64,000 nt of DNA from Chryseobacterium oryzae (GTDB lineage: Bacteria > Bacteroidota > Bacteroidia > Flavobacteriales > Weeksellaceae): the NCBI RefSeq assembly GCF_022811665.1, contig NZ_CP094529.1:3067264-3131263 (forward strand), read 5' to 3'. Position numbers and translations under genes: made by a program. Positions 5,895 through 54,246 of the stretch are shown here, one piece after another. Under the pieces are notes generated by a model. That model worked only from the letters and a program-made list of their open reading frames with translations. It made no database searches and had not been told where the DNA came from. The first letter of the stretch is position 1; every line of letters begins with the position of its first letter.

Positions 5895-6145
5895 CGTAGT
5901 TTATTCTAATTTGATTGAATTAATTTTCTGCAAAGATACTCAAATACCCGCAATGTAAATGTTCACAAATCTTTTCTTTACATTTCCGTAATAATGATCT
6001 CATTTATACACATACAAGAAATATAACGCAATAAGAATGCATCCAATCTATACTTAGAAAAGGAATCGAATATAAAATTTAGAAAATCTCAGACAATAAA
6101 AATTATTTCAAGCTATTTTTTAAGCCGATTTTCATAACCTTTAGG

Positions 6146-6298
6146 TTAAGAACAACCACAATTCTTATTACAACTTGATCGTTTGGAAGTGAATTTTTTA
6201 CTCGAAAAATTTTTACGGAGAATTCTGTAAAAAGAATAGCATGCGAAAATTACTATCAACGCAACTATTATATATTGAAAAACCATCGAATTATTCAT
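6146..6298 (-). CDS. FeoB-associated Cys-rich membrane protein
   Basis: This is a 50-residue gene, easily lost to length filters, that starts with ATG one base after the FeoB stop codon. Residues 5-24 form one membrane helix (MVFQYIIVALIVIFACYSFY). A basic stretch RKNFSSKKFTSKRSS follows, and the tail ends in C-N-K-N-C-G-C-S with three cysteines. Small proteins of this type follow feoB in many bacteria (FeoB-associated Cys-rich family). They are thought to assist ferrous iron transport, perhaps as a substitute for FeoC. The position, helix and cysteine tail are seen; the role is inferred. Confidence 0.85.
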   Translation of the reverse strand: MNNSMVFQYIIVALIVIFACYSFYRILRKNFSSKKFTSKRSSCNKNCGCS

Positions 6299-6299
6299 T

Positions 6300-8270
6300 T
6301 TACTTTAACGTTTGATATACAATCATCGACACAAAATATGCCAAACCGGTCATCATAACCAACTGCAAAGCTGTCCATTTAAAACTTTTAGTTTCTTTGT
6401 ACACTACAGCAATCGTAGATACGCACTGCATAGCAAATGCGTAAAATAAGAGAATAGAAATTCCTGTTGCAAAACTGAAAACTTTTTCTCCATTCGGTTT
6501 TACATCATGCCGCATTTTATCGATCACTTTTCCTTCAGGAACATCATCATCCAGACTGTATAAAGTAGACATAGTTCCTACAAAAACTTCCCGTGCTACA
6601 AAACTCGTAAGAATTCCTACTCCCATCTTCCAGTCGTATCCCAACGGTGCAATAGCGGGTTCTATAACCTTTCCCATTCTGGCAAGATAAGAATGATCTA
6701 ATGAGACATCGGCTGAAACCCATTCTCCGGGTTTTTGTTTAGGTCCGAAATAGCTTAAAACCCAAACGATGATACTTACTACAAAAATAATCTTTCCTGC
6801 TCCGGTAATAAATTCCCAAACTTTCCCTAAAACCAATTTTAAATCGTTTCCGAACAAAGGTTTTTTATAAGTAGGAAGATCCATTACCAAATACGTTTTC
6901 TTTTCTTCTTTAATAAAATGCTTCAAAATAAACGCAGATAAAAGGGCAACAAAAAACCCTAACAAATACATTCCTAAAAGCACCAAAGCTTTATAATGAA
7001 TCCCGAAAATCGTTTTATCTGAAATAATGAGTCCTATAATTATACTGTAAACAGGTAATCTTGCAGAACAAGTCATAAAAGGGGTTACCAAAATGGTAAG
7101 CAATCTTTCTTTAAGATTCTCTATATTTCTTGTCGAAATAACTGCAGGAATTGCACAAGCCGTTCCCGAAACGAGCGGAACAATACTTTTTCCGTTCAGA
7201 CCGAAAGGGCGGAGAATTCTGTCCATTAAAAATATAACTCTCGACATATATCCGGAATCTTCCAGCAAATAAAGGAAGTACAATAAAATACCAATCTGCG
7301 GAGCAAAAACAATAATACCTCCTAATCCGGGAATAATCCCTTTGGAAACCAATGAATTGATTGGTCCTACCGGAAGATGTTCTGCCGATGTATCCGAAAG
7401 CCATCCAAAAAACTCATCAATTAAGTTCATAGGATATTCTGCGATAAAAAATACGCTCTGAAAAATAACCAAAAGCACCAGCAGAAAAAATAAATATCCA
7501 AAAACAGGATGTACAAGAAGTTTATCTAATTTATCTGTAAGAAGCTGCTTAAATTCAGGTTTTTTGGATATTACTTCATTCAAAACATCATCAATTTTCT
7601 GATATCTTCTTACCGTTTCCTGAACCTGTAATCTTTTAGGATTTAAACTTTTATCTTTTCTATTTTTGTTGAAAGTAACATCCAGCCAATCTTTATACTG
7701 ATTTCCTGATAATTTTTCGTGATGTTCTGAAGGTATCTTGAACGATTGATTTTCTGCAGCGATAAAATCATCATTAAAAATAGCTTCTTTAATAATATCT
7801 ATGCCTAAATGTTCTTTAGCATTGGTTTTAATAACCTTTACATTCAGTTTAGAAGAAAGTTGGTCTACATCGATATGAATTCCTCTTCTTTCTGCCTGAT
7901 CAATCTGATTGAGAATTAAAATTGTGGGAACTCCCAAATCCTGAATCTGCTGAAAAAGGAGCAGTCCTCTTTTTACACTCAACGCCTCTAGAATATAGAT
8001 GATCCCAGAATAATCCTGCTTATTTTCCAGCAAGAATTTAGATAAAATTGCTTCATCTTCTGAAGTGGGATAAATACTGTAAGATCCCGGTAGATCTATA
8101 ATCTCTACTTCTTCGTTATTGAATGTGTATTTTCCGGAATGGCTCGAAACGGTGACTCCGGTATAGTTTCCGGTTTTTTGCTTTTTATTGGACAGAGCGT
8201 TGAAAAGTGTAGATTTCCCAACATTCGGGTTTCCAACTAAAAGTATTTTTTTGTGGCTATTTTCCTGCAT
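6300..8270 (-). CDS. feoB: Ferrous iron transporter B
   Basis: FeoB is the GTPase-coupled inner-membrane Fe(II) importer. The G1 loop GNPNVGKST is at residues 13-21, G3 DLPGS near 59 and G4 NQID near 121. The membrane part follows from about residue 250, with two Gate domains (near GTACAIPAVISTRNIENLKE and VAREVFVGTMSTLY) whose cysteine lies in the pore. Its 656 residues are shorter than E. coli FeoB (773) but usual for Bacteroidota. It overlaps feoA by 14 nt and is followed by the Cys-rich helper, so the order is feoA-feoB-helper. Confidence 0.95.
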   Translation of the reverse strand: MQENSHKKILLVGNPNVGKSTLFNALSNKKQKTGNYTGVTVSSHSGKYTFNNEEVEIIDLPGSYSIYPTSEDEAILSKFLLENKQDYSGIIYILEALSVKRGLLLFQQIQDLGVPTILILNQIDQAERRGIHIDVDQLSSKLNVKVIKTNAKEHLGIDIIKEAIFNDDFIAAENQSFKIPSEHHEKLSGNQYKDWLDVTFNKNRKDKSLNPKRLQVQETVRRYQKIDDVLNEVISKKPEFKQLLTDKLDKLLVHPVFGYLFFLLVLLVIFQSVFFIAEYPMNLIDEFFGWLSDTSAEHLPVGPINSLVSKGIIPGLGGIIVFAPQIGILLYFLYLLEDSGYMSRVIFLMDRILRPFGLNGKSIVPLVSGTACAIPAVISTRNIENLKERLLTILVTPFMTCSARLPVYSIIIGLIISDKTIFGIHYKALVLLGMYLLGFFVALLSAFILKHFIKEEKKTYLVMDLPTYKKPLFGNDLKLVLGKVWEFITGAGKIIFVVSIIVWVLSYFGPKQKPGEWVSADVSLDHSYLARMGKVIEPAIAPLGYDWKMGVGILTSFVAREVFVGTMSTLYSLDDDVPEGKVIDKMRHDVKPNGEKVFSFATGISILLFYAFAMQCVSTIAVVYKETKSFKWTALQLVMMTGLAYFVSMIVYQTLK

Positions 8271-51523: not shown

Positions 51524-52564
51524 ATGCGAATAGAAAACGAAATTAAATTAGGATTCAAAGACGTGATGTTTCGTCCAAAACGATCAACACTCAAATCCCG
51601 CTCAGAAGTGACGATAGAAAGAGAATTTACCTTTCTTCATACCCAAAAAAAATGGAGCGGCACACCACTGATTGCCGCTAATATGGACACTGTTGGTACT
51701 TTTGAAATGGCTGAAGCACTTTATAAAGACAAGATTATCACCGCGGTTCATAAACATTATAGCGTTCAGGAATGGTCTGATTTTCTGAAAGATAAACCCG
51801 ATGACTTCTACCAGTATATTGCGTTAAGTACCGGCACAGGAAAGGCGGACGAAGAAAAAATTAAAACCATCTTGCAAGCCAACCCAAAAATAGAATTTCT
51901 CTGCATTGATGTTGCCAATGGCTATTCCGAGCATTTTGTAGCGTTTGTGAAAAAAGCACGTCAGAATTTTCCTGATAAAATCATTATGGCGGGCAACGTG
52001 GTAACCGGCGAAATGGTAGAAGAATTACTTTTGGCAGGTGCCGACATCATCAAAGTGGGGATTGGTCCTGGCTCTGTTTGCACCACGCGTGTAAAAACGG
52101 GTGTCGGCTATCCGCAACTTTCCGCCATTATAGAATGTGCCGATGCAGCACACGGTCTTGGCGGTCAAATCATTGGTGATGGCGGCTGCAAAGTTCCCGG
52201 AGATGTAGCAAAAGCGTTTGGTGGCGGTGCCGATTTTGTAATGCTCGGCGGTATGTTTGCCGGACACGACGAAAGTGGTGGCGAACTCATCACAGAAAAC
52301 GGAAAAACATTCCGACTATTTTACGGAATGAGCTCCCAAACTGCGATGGATAAACACGCTGGCGGTGTTGCAGAATACCGCGCCTCGGAAGGAAAAACCG
52401 TGAAAGTCCCTTACAAAGGTCCGGTGACAGAGACTGTAAAAGATATTCTGGGTGGCGTCCGTTCGACTTGTACTTACGTTGGTGCCTCTAAACTGAAAGA
52501 GTTATCGAAAAGAACCACGTTCATCCGTGTTCAGGAGCAGGAAAATCAGGTGTTTGGCGGATAA
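51524..52564 (+). CDS. guaC: GMP reductase
   Basis: GuaC converts GMP to IMP with NADPH. The catalytic cysteine is in [15 protein letters not shown] (about residue 186). [36 protein letters not shown] and [17 protein letters not shown] are typical of GuaC rather than IMP dehydrogenase, and there is no CBS insert. The length of 346 matches E. coli GuaC (347). A TAATTTTG box ends only 5 nt before the ATG, so the transcript could be leaderless. Base composition is clearly richer in GC than in most of the window. Confidence 0.95.
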
Positions 52565-52692: not shown

Positions 52693-52718
52693 TGTCTCCG
52701 ACATTGATGTCGGAGACA
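52693..52718. promoter_or_regulatory. 26-bp palindrome upstream of the Doc-type module
   Basis: TGTCTCCGACAT and ATGTCGGAGACA are perfect inverse copies separated by TG, 14 nt before the ATG at 52733. The position and symmetry suit an operator for autoregulation by the DNA-binding protein. A hairpin acting on the transcript is the main alternative; there is no T run, so a terminator is unlikely. Confidence 0.7.
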
Positions 52719-52732
52719 TCAAACTAAATAAT

Positions 52733-53758
52733 ATGAAAAGAGACTTAACAAATTCTCCTGTTGAAAGAAAAAATGTATTAAATAATAATATAGCAATCCC
52801 TGAAATATATAAGGCGGTAAGCTTTCCTGGTGTTCTTCTTGAAAAAAAATTCCGTTATACAAAACAGCAGCTTTCAGAATTTTTTGAAGTTGACGTTAGA
52901 ACTATTGAAAGGGTTTTAGCAAATAACGAAGACGAAATTATTTCAAATGGATACGAAGTTCTTACTGGAAATCGATTAAAGATATTTAAAGAAGAATTTA
53001 TCAAAATAATTAATCCTCATTACAAAGAAGAATTAAATAAAGCTCCATCTTTAGGTGTTTTTACATTTAAAGCTTTATTGAACTTTGGAATGTTATTAAC
53101 TGACTCTGAGAGAGCTAGGCAAATTCGATCACTCATTTTGGACATTGTTATAGATGTTTTAAATGAAAAAGTGCAAGGTCATACAAAATTTATCAATCAA
53201 AGAGAAGAACAATATCTTTTTGTTGCTATGGATGAATTTGATTATAGAACTAAATTTACAAATGCTATTGATCATTATATTGAAAAGAATAATTTTAAGT
53301 ATTCTCAACTTACTGATAAAGTATATAAAAGTATATTTAAAGAAAATGCGAGTGAGTATAAAAAAATTCTTCGTTTAAACTCTAAACAGAGCGTTCGTTC
53401 TACTTTTTACACAGAAATTTTAAGAATTATATCCGACTATGAAAATGCTTTTGCTGTCGAGTTAGAAGATTGCTTTAATGAAAAAGGCAGAAAATTAACT
53501 CTTACAGAAGCACATTCTTTATTTAATGATTTTTCCAAAAGAGCTGAAAAGATGATGTATGCTTCTATACAAGATGCTAGAAGTAAAATGGCTAGTCGGG
53601 ATTTAGCTTTTAGAGATGCCTTACATGAAAAATTAGAGGACTACATAAAAGAAGTTTCGGAAGAAGATTTTGAAAAATTTTTAGGAGAACAGAGTATGAC
53701 AATAGAACGGCGTTTGGAAGAGAACAAAGATGTATTTAAAAGATTAAAAAATAGATAA
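52733..53758 (+). CDS. DNA-binding protein, probable antitoxin/regulator of a Doc module
   Basis: The 341-residue protein has a helix-turn-helix near residues 43-65 (TKQQLSEFFEVDVRTIERVL). A middle part (FKALLNFGMLLTDSERARQI, then RSLILDIVID) is like RhuM/BRO-type phage-related regulators. The C-terminal 150 residues are charged and helical (LTEAHSLFNDFSKRAEKMMY, FEKFLGEQSMTIERRLEENK). It is far larger than the usual Phd partner (about 73). The gene is AT-rich compared with guaC and sits behind a palindrome. It ends 2 nt before the doc gene. The antitoxin role is inferred from context. Confidence 0.7.
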   Translation: MKRDLTNSPVERKNVLNNNIAIPEIYKAVSFPGVLLEKKFRYTKQQLSEFFEVDVRTIERVLANNEDEIISNGYEVLTGNRLKIFKEEFIKIINPHYKEELNKAPSLGVFTFKALLNFGMLLTDSERARQIRSLILDIVIDVLNEKVQGHTKFINQREEQYLFVAMDEFDYRTKFTNAIDHYIEKNNFKYSQLTDKVYKSIFKENASEYKKILRLNSKQSVRSTFYTEILRIISDYENAFAVELEDCFNEKGRKLTLTEAHSLFNDFSKRAEKMMYASIQDARSKMASRDLAFRDALHEKLEDYIKEVSEEDFEKFLGEQSMTIERRLEENKDVFKRLKNR

Positions 53759-53760
53759 TA

Positions 53761-54246
53761 ATGCTACTTTATTTCCCTAAAGAATTTGCTATCAAAATTC
53801 ATGACAAAATTTTAGATATTTCAGGTGGACATAAAGGTATTAAGGATGAAGGCAATATTGAAAGTCCACTATACCACATCCAACAAGACATATATTATCC
53901 ATATCTTGAAGATAAACTCACACATTTAGTTTTTTGTTTCAATAAATTCCATGCTTTCAATGATGGTAATAAGCGAACATCAATTGCTCTAGGTGCTTTC
54001 TTTTTACAAACGAATGGTTTTGGAAATATCGTGAATAAATTTATTCGAGAAATGGAAAATATTGCTGTTGCTGTTGCCGACAATGTTATTGGTAAAGAAT
54101 TATTGCACGATATTATAGCATCTATTATTTATGATGATGATTATGATGAAATAATAAAATTAAAAATTTTCGATACTTTAAATAGTATTAACAAGGATGT
54201 AGGAATTAATCTCGCTGACAATAACACTTTTTGGGATTTATATTAA
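53761..54246 (+). CDS. doc: Doc-type (Fic-fold) toxin
   Basis: The 161-residue protein has the Doc motif HAFNDGNKRT at residues 64-73. A lysine replaces the glycine of true Fic AMP-transferases, as in Doc, which phosphorylates EF-Tu. An N-terminal GNIESPLYHIQ stretch (31-41) resembles the part preceding the motif in Doc. The C-terminus after about 125 is an acidic extension beyond P1 Doc (126 residues). It follows the DNA-binding protein by 2 nt and overlaps the 3' end of the convergent nucleosidase gene by 4 nt. Confidence 0.85.
   Translation: MLLYFPKEFAIKIHDKILDISGGHKGIKDEGNIESPLYHIQQDIYYPYLEDKLTHLVFCFNKFHAFNDGNKRTSIALGAFFLQTNGFGNIVNKFIREMENIAVAVADNVIGKELLHDIIASIIYDDDYDEIIKLKIFDTLNSINKDVGINLADNNTFWDLY

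Follow-up and report, generated by a model that had tools for sequence, protein, structure and literature searches.

A toxin-linked regulator of Chryseobacterium oryzae and its probable operator, predicted in most relatives to lie within the regulator's own reading frame

The 64,000-nucleotide stretch of Chryseobacterium oryzae DNA analysed here (NCBI RefSeq assembly GCF_022811665.1, contig NZ_CP094529.1, positions 3,067,264 to 3,131,263; hereafter the window) carries a compact two-gene unit at 52693..54246, in which a 341-residue predicted DNA-binding regulator is followed by a Doc toxin and preceded by a palindromic dyad. Covariation between the bases of the dyad and the regulator's predicted recognition helix makes it very probable that the dyad is the DNA operator of the regulator itself. 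The features of the unit are as follows.

52693..52718, no strand: dyad of 26 base pairs (bp), probable operator of the regulator; half-site TGTCTCCGACAT, core CCGACAT-NN-ATGTCGG
52733..53758, plus strand: PDC-M59A regulator, 341 residues (PADLOC profile, structure models, adjacency to doc)
52895..52924, plus strand: predicted recognition helix, residues 55-64, including R56, E59 and R60 (both models and covariation)
52994..53047, plus strand: linker, about residues 88-105, the place of the dyad in most relatives; no dyad is left in this gene
53761..54246, plus strand: Doc/Fic toxin PDC-M59B, 161 residues (TIGR01550, Pfam Fic, PDC-M59B and PDB matches)
53950..53979, plus strand: Doc motif HAFNDGNKRT (sequence)

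The palindrome at 52693-52718 reads TGTCTCCGACAT-TG-ATGTCGGAGACA and ends 14 nucleotides (nt) 5' of the regulator's ATG at 52733. The first-pass annotation of this DNA had called it a perfect 26-bp palindrome; the position and the two perfect 12-bp arms stand, and the description is slightly overstated because the 2-bp centre is not itself palindromic. Chance is a poor account of it: no match arose in 100 shuffles of the window, and among 5900 first-order-shuffled upstream regions of the family all 12 positions paired in one, and at least 11 in 14. The core CCGACATNNATGTCGG occurs in the whole genome once exactly and once with one mismatch. The closest relatives, in Chryseobacterium, Kaistella and Sphingobacterium, have the same kind of upstream dyad and core, and most others do not. 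In Chryseobacterium taeanense (L003/L035) the doc frame is split into pieces of 66-67 and 118 residues behind an intact regulator, and the leader keeps an intact, perfect palindrome of 32 bp.

To place the palindrome in its family, relatives of the regulator were pooled from close genomes, phylum and order samples, named species, viral contigs, a plasmid and satellite phages; 142 loci with a match, less 14 partial and 10 identical ones, gave 118 distinct full-length regulators. The first-pass annotation had made absence of the palindrome from other copies of the pair a ground for doubt; this does not hold, and the palindrome belongs to the pair. Upstream it is missing from most copies, yet a scan of the genes themselves finds a dyad in the linker behind the N-terminal domain in 100 of the 118, centred at about nt 270-315 of the open reading frame. 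Such an internal dyad is defined by at least 9 of 12 pairs, in one reading frame and within nt 255-325, and 18 of 1298 control segments of equal size from other parts of these genes, restricted likewise, reach that mark; at 11 pairs or more the counts are 66 of 118 against 1 of 1298. When the search was left unrestricted, 86 of 93 distinct hits still fell in that frame, and the seven others (L002, L003, L004, L036, L083, L086, L142) include copies without an internal dyad. A broken regulator copy in genome G312 has the dyad inside the reading frame. A repeat score of 8 or more was reached by 71 of the 118 real genes, in 70 of them at the dyad, as against 46 of 2360 synonymous-codon shuffles. 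Because such shuffles rarely reach the same score, the protein sequence alone does not force the dyad. At its centre the four encoded residues differ between copies (DINV, DIDV, ETDF, LMNE, DIDD and others), as if the protein followed the DNA at this point. The window's own regulator scores 6 of 12 here.

Some internal sites depart from the common form. A Limnohabitans bin (L050) has two tandem dyads inside the regulator frame, at gene nt 300-329 and 332-363, and in L022 the internal palindrome extends to 50 bp (gene nt 266-315), far past the 26-bp consensus.

Evidence on the role of the dyad comes from its covariation with the protein. We computed corrected mutual information from 111 dyad-bearing copies (63.6 effective sequences at 80% identity), with the linker columns excluded, and number base positions (k) outward from the dyad centre. 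The six strongest of some 3,800 residue/base pairs were R60-k3, E59-k6, E59-k7, R56-k5, R56-k4 and D54-k3, all of them within residues 54-60. At residue 60 and k3, Arg goes with C in 87 of 88 copies, Asn with A in 19 of 19 and Lys with A in 3 of 3; at residue 59 and k6, Glu goes with C in 72 of 72, Asp with C in 26 of 26, Lys with G in 4 of 5 and Asn with G in 4 of 6; at residue 56 and k5, Arg goes with G in 89 of 90 and Ala with C in 9 of 10. Read in this way, the code appears nearly deterministic. Comparison of 53 disjoint sister pairs put 60-k3 (P 3e-7), 59-k7 (P 1.5e-6) and 59-k6 (P 7.5e-5, which fails correction for 1600 tests) at the head of 1600 tests. Individual pairs tell the same story: L048 and L052, 85% identical, exchange Lys59 with GGGACAT for Glu59 with CCGACAT, and L105 and L108, 90% identical, exchange Arg56/Arg60 with CCG(A/T)CAT for Ser56/Lys60 with CCGTAAT. 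Seventeen copies stood outside the code tables, three of them identical to copies already used and one with a broken site. The 13 that could be evaluated follow the residue 59 rule without exception (L063 on one arm only), and 10 of the 11 to which the residue 60 rule applies follow that one too (L013 on one arm only). The window's R56, E59 and R60 predict CCGACAT, its own half-site, and the upstream dyads of L098 and L100 obey the code of their Ala56 and Val56; since these leader dyads fit the code, a dyad in the leader and one inside the gene very probably serve as the same functional site.

The same observations bear on two simpler accounts of the palindrome. It could be a hairpin in the messenger RNA, a terminator or a translational control element selected at the RNA level: once transcribed, its arms could fold back on each other around a short loop, and in the window it lies 14 nt before a start codon and 129 nt past the end of the upstream gene, guaC. 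However, in the 93 distinct dyads, a set that includes a few chance hits in copies without an internal dyad, 984 positions are paired, and mismatches were A-C in 58 cases, G-T in 24 and other in 50. C-to-T changes at wobble codon positions would preserve G-U pairs, yet the mismatches compatible with G-U are rarer than A-C. Since an RNA stem tolerates G-U and no excess of it is seen, we read the dyad as DNA; no run of T follows the window's dyad, a hairpin would not be expected to covary with a recognition helix, and we consider this explanation highly unlikely. The idea of a dispersed repeat or insertion element, present here by chance, has in its favour genome G461, which holds the same 18-bp pattern between genes (L116, palindromes at 1500-1517 and 1607-1623 that share the ACCGACAT core or show its CCGGCAT variant) and in which the regulator was not found. 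But the window's own genome holds a single exact core, ACCGACATNNATGTCGGT occurs in only 2 of 395 genomes, in one of them within a broken regulator copy, and the covariation with the protein largely refutes the idea, to which we give almost no credence.

An operator read by the regulator thus seems the best account of the dyad, and its two positions are close to mutually exclusive. With the upstream form defined as at least 11 of 12 pairs within 200 nt, 11 copies, the window's included, have an upstream dyad and no internal one, one (L007) has both and seven have neither. An upstream dyad accordingly accompanies 1 of 100 copies with an internal dyad and 11 of 18 without (P 4e-10, ignoring kinship). 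In a tree built by a quick method and rooted at the midpoint, the upstream copies fall into two clusters apart from one another, and within either cluster one or two copies lack both dyads; the class sample adds three more of the upstream type (L150 and L152 with 10 of 12 pairs, L153 with 12 of 12). The two types also differ in their surroundings: 42 of 96 internal-type copies start no more than 60 nt behind a co-directional gene, against 0 of 11 of the upstream type (P 0.003), a contrast compatible with a shift of the operator to the leader in pairs that have a putative promoter of their own. L103 has a weaker upstream palindrome (TTTGGTCACGAAATGGATTTCATTACCAAA) beside its internal one; the two share the GAAAT half-site, and the upstream one looks like a duplicate of a linker segment, possibly a step in such a relocation.

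At the same time, several observations weigh against a self-read operator at work throughout the family. Seven of the 118 copies show neither dyad at the thresholds used: L014, L015, L016 and L018 have decayed to 8 of 12 pairs, and L040, L067 and L086 have none that passes. The code has gaps as well; residue 56, strong in the set as a whole, is absent from the leaders of the sister-pair comparison, where k5 differs in just 2 pairs, and L153 breaks the residue 60 rule. The promoter of the pair is putative, and that a dimer bound about 290 nt inside the gene regulates it is a step we infer.

The toxin is the more familiar of the two proteins. Doc matches TIGR01550 DOC_P1 (49.5 bits against a cut-off of 38.65), Pfam Fic (E 2.3e-11) and the P1 Doc chains in the PDB (E 3.9e-7), and has the HxFxDGNKR motif; the HAFNDGNKRT that had first drawn attention to the locus, in a gene starting 2 nt after the end of the large regulator, is indeed there; in the Fic/Doc family this motif is the catalytic loop. 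The regulator, by contrast with Phd, belongs to no Pfam family (none at E up to 1), which bears out the earlier view that this partner is not Phd-like, and no curated NCBIfam family scored above its cut-off. It does match the PADLOC profile PDC-M59A over residues 3-340 (E 4.7e-101), and Doc matches PDC-M59B (E 5.7e-33). The two profiles, whose adjacency defines PDC-M59 and which here fall in genes 2 nt apart, cover both proteins nearly in full, so that PADLOC already includes the pair among its unvalidated defence candidates. PDC entries, according to PMC12988326, come from a guilt-by-embedding search and are for the most part without experimental validation. A search for the name PDC-M59 in the literature collection used gave no match, and nothing was seen there on an operator, an intragenic dyad, relocation or a recognition code. 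The pairing, put forward at first as a possible new antitoxin class, is in this respect already known; what is new is the element described here, a predicted operator within the frame that codes for its repressor; it appears to co-evolve with the recognition helix and, in the window's clade, lies in the leader.

Structure prediction gives the regulator an N-terminal winged-helix-like DNA-binding domain followed by a helical C-terminal part. Helix 55-64 is present in both models, and in the N-terminal model it is the second helix of the helix-turn-helix (HTH). The full model is middling (predicted local distance difference test 76, predicted template-modelling score 0.44). Its best PDB match is DdrC, at a root-mean-square deviation of 13.9, and mostly helical models can reach such Z scores without kinship; when the better N-terminal model was searched, there was no strong match and DdrC was not among the matches listed. 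Against a viral structure library the full, middling model gave four matches at E up to 0.001, two of them named KilA-N. We treat the DdrC and KilA-N kinships as leads. A RhuM/BRO-like nature had been proposed for the regulator. The RhuM half of this is not supported: the Virulence_RhuM profile (PF13310) matches neither the regulator nor anything else in its genome, and hhalign gives a probability of 2.5% over 36 HTH columns only. The structure matches do hint at a KilA-N/BRO-like fold, with no Pfam match beside them.

The regulator is presumed to be antitoxin and autorepressor at once, and the constancy of the pair is consistent with this. A same-strand Fic/Doc frame adjoins the regulator in 113 of the 118 copies, and in the remaining five the contig breaks off no more than 83 nt away; the possibility raised at the outset, that homologues of the regulator are found mostly without doc, was checked, and the two genes prove to be a conserved unit. 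Alternatively, the protein might regulate the pair only, with Doc neutralised by something else or not toxic at all. The lack of any known antitoxin motif or family in the regulator (Pfam, NCBIfam) speaks for this; the near-fixed two-gene unit, in which a third gene is not needed, and the broken copies present in several genomes speak against it, and we think it unlikely. The phylum sample holds many such broken regulators, among them L027-L034, L115 and further partial loci; a single genus (g86) accounts for most of them. In one relative, an uncultured Prevotellaceae (L064), the Doc frame behind the regulator (6001-7017, 314 residues) has a C-terminal TIR/SEFIR domain, a Doc-TIR fusion (Fic E 6.5e-7, TIR_2 E 6.9e-14) that brings a second effector-type domain into the module.

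Overall, we think it probable that the pair is an autoregulated toxin-antitoxin-like module with its operator in the coding sequence or the leader, whose regulator dimer represses the pair and restrains Doc. The pairing of the genes, the dyad, its two positions and its covariation with the recognition helix were computed directly. From these we infer with good support that PDC-M59A would bind the 26-bp dyad as a symmetric dimer through the winged HTH helix of residues 55-64. The bound regulator would repress the pair, in the leader type by overlap with the promoter region and in the internal type by blocking elongation; an internal operator about 270-315 nt past the start codon would act on any transcript entering the pair, whatever the upstream promoter or operon. 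Two clades, the window's among them, would have lost the internal site to decay and have one of the same pattern in the leader, where at least 126 nt of upstream space are available. The regulator would also keep Doc, presumably a kinase that blocks translation, in check until phage infection (the probable trigger) or some other stress frees it and translation stops; restraint, trigger and translation stop are drawn by analogy from established knowledge of Phd-Doc and from context. A different role for the dyad would be that of a sensing platform, not (only) a site of autorepression, on which a regulator-Doc complex rests until phage nucleases, methylases or replication alter the DNA and release or activate it. 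The weakness of the DdrC match, tied as it is to the middling full model, counts against this, and simple autorepression would by itself lead one to expect an operator placed in the leader, as it is in two clades; we regard such a platform as quite unlikely.

The setting of the relatives suggests how an internal operator might be of use. Regulator relatives were found in 3 of 117 close genomes (the window's own included). Each of the wider samples comprised 395 genomes, and relatives occurred in 33 of them for the phylum, 7 for the order and 12 for the class. Named species genomes hold at least 525, of which the best 80 were retained, so the sampling leans to closer relatives. Further relatives are carried by 22 viral-contig loci, one plasmid and four Streptococcus satellite-phage records; in three of the latter (L144, L145 and L146, from Javan319, 742 and 313) the PDC-M59A-like regulator is found close to the integrase end, under the annotation 'CiaB protein'. 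On the Ilyobacter plasmid the pair sits 28 nt behind a type III restriction gene and is annotated as a DNA-binding protein and a death-on-curing toxin. The neighbour scans covered 59 of 78 co-directional upstream genes and 50 of 59 downstream genes. Among the 59 upstream neighbours, where one gene may match several profiles, 12 match N6_N4_Mtase, 11 Methylase_S, 6 N6_Mtase and 6 Eco57I; among the 50 downstream, 18 match ResIII. The module is often embedded in restriction-modification operons. More tentatively, and as a possibility that we do not favour outright, the coding sequence may be written to order by its own DNA-binding specificity, so that in restriction-modification operons a portable roadblock switch would time the downstream doc and restriction genes, C-protein-like and independent of the promoter; once the pair left and gained its own promoter, the operator would be rebuilt in the leader and the internal copy would decay.

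Comparison with known systems brings out what is familiar here and what is not. As in Phd-Doc of phage P1, a Doc-type toxin with the canonical motif lies downstream of a DNA-binding partner and there is a palindromic operator. Phd, however, has about 73 residues, whereas the partner here has 341 and no Pfam antitoxin match, and in most members the putative operator is inside the partner's reading frame. In P1, Phd autoregulates and Doc phosphorylates EF-Tu, according to a review (PMC4803016). RhuM and the KilA-N/BRO-like phage regulators share an N-terminal HTH with the regulator, and viral KilA-N proteins are among its model matches; unlike a RhuM protein, it has no match to that profile beyond the HTH columns compared. 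RhuM-like and DOC genes are seen in restriction-modification operons, with RhuM often fused to DOC, in the portion of PMC3710099 that treats them. Nine RhuM genes that we scanned had no comparably strong dyad at a fixed place (the best reached 10 of 12 anywhere). Operators within coding sequence have precedents in lac O2, in lacZ, and in parS, inside spo0J/parB of Bacillus subtilis. Both are palindromic protein-binding sites in a reading frame, parS in the gene of its own binding protein; here, in contrast, the site covaries with the encoded recognition helix, belongs to a presumed toxin-linked repressor and appears to have moved to the leader in two clades. In axe-txe and yefM-yoeB the control elements within the antitoxin gene are additional promoters, according to the relevant part of PMC7730913, not an operator that co-evolves with the antitoxin.

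In the window itself, the names of the neighbouring genes are read from the sequence. The upstream one is

51524-52564: guaC, upstream neighbour of the dyad

and downstream of doc, convergent with it, are a nucleosidase-like gene and lut-like genes. The pair was at first taken for an AT-rich insertion between its neighbours. It is AT-rich (regulator and doc together have 28.1% G+C, guaC 45%, and only 0.4% of the window's 1.5-kb segments are as low); the insertion gained no such backing, as no empty site was found among 29 guaC loci of relatives, none of which has a nucleosidase after guaC within 1.5-kb flanks.

A catalogued defence candidate now gains a concrete mechanism to test, and a protein-DNA code linking residues 56, 59 and 60 to three base positions can be read from sequence alone. 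In most of the relatives examined, a single piece of DNA seems to act at once as coding sequence and as switch. With a predicted operator in the repressor's own reading frame across 12 named phyla (several of the phylum labels resting on metagenome bins), apparently rebuilt in the leader in two clades, the family offers a rare natural experiment, one that bears on how regulation survives horizontal transfer into a foreign operon.
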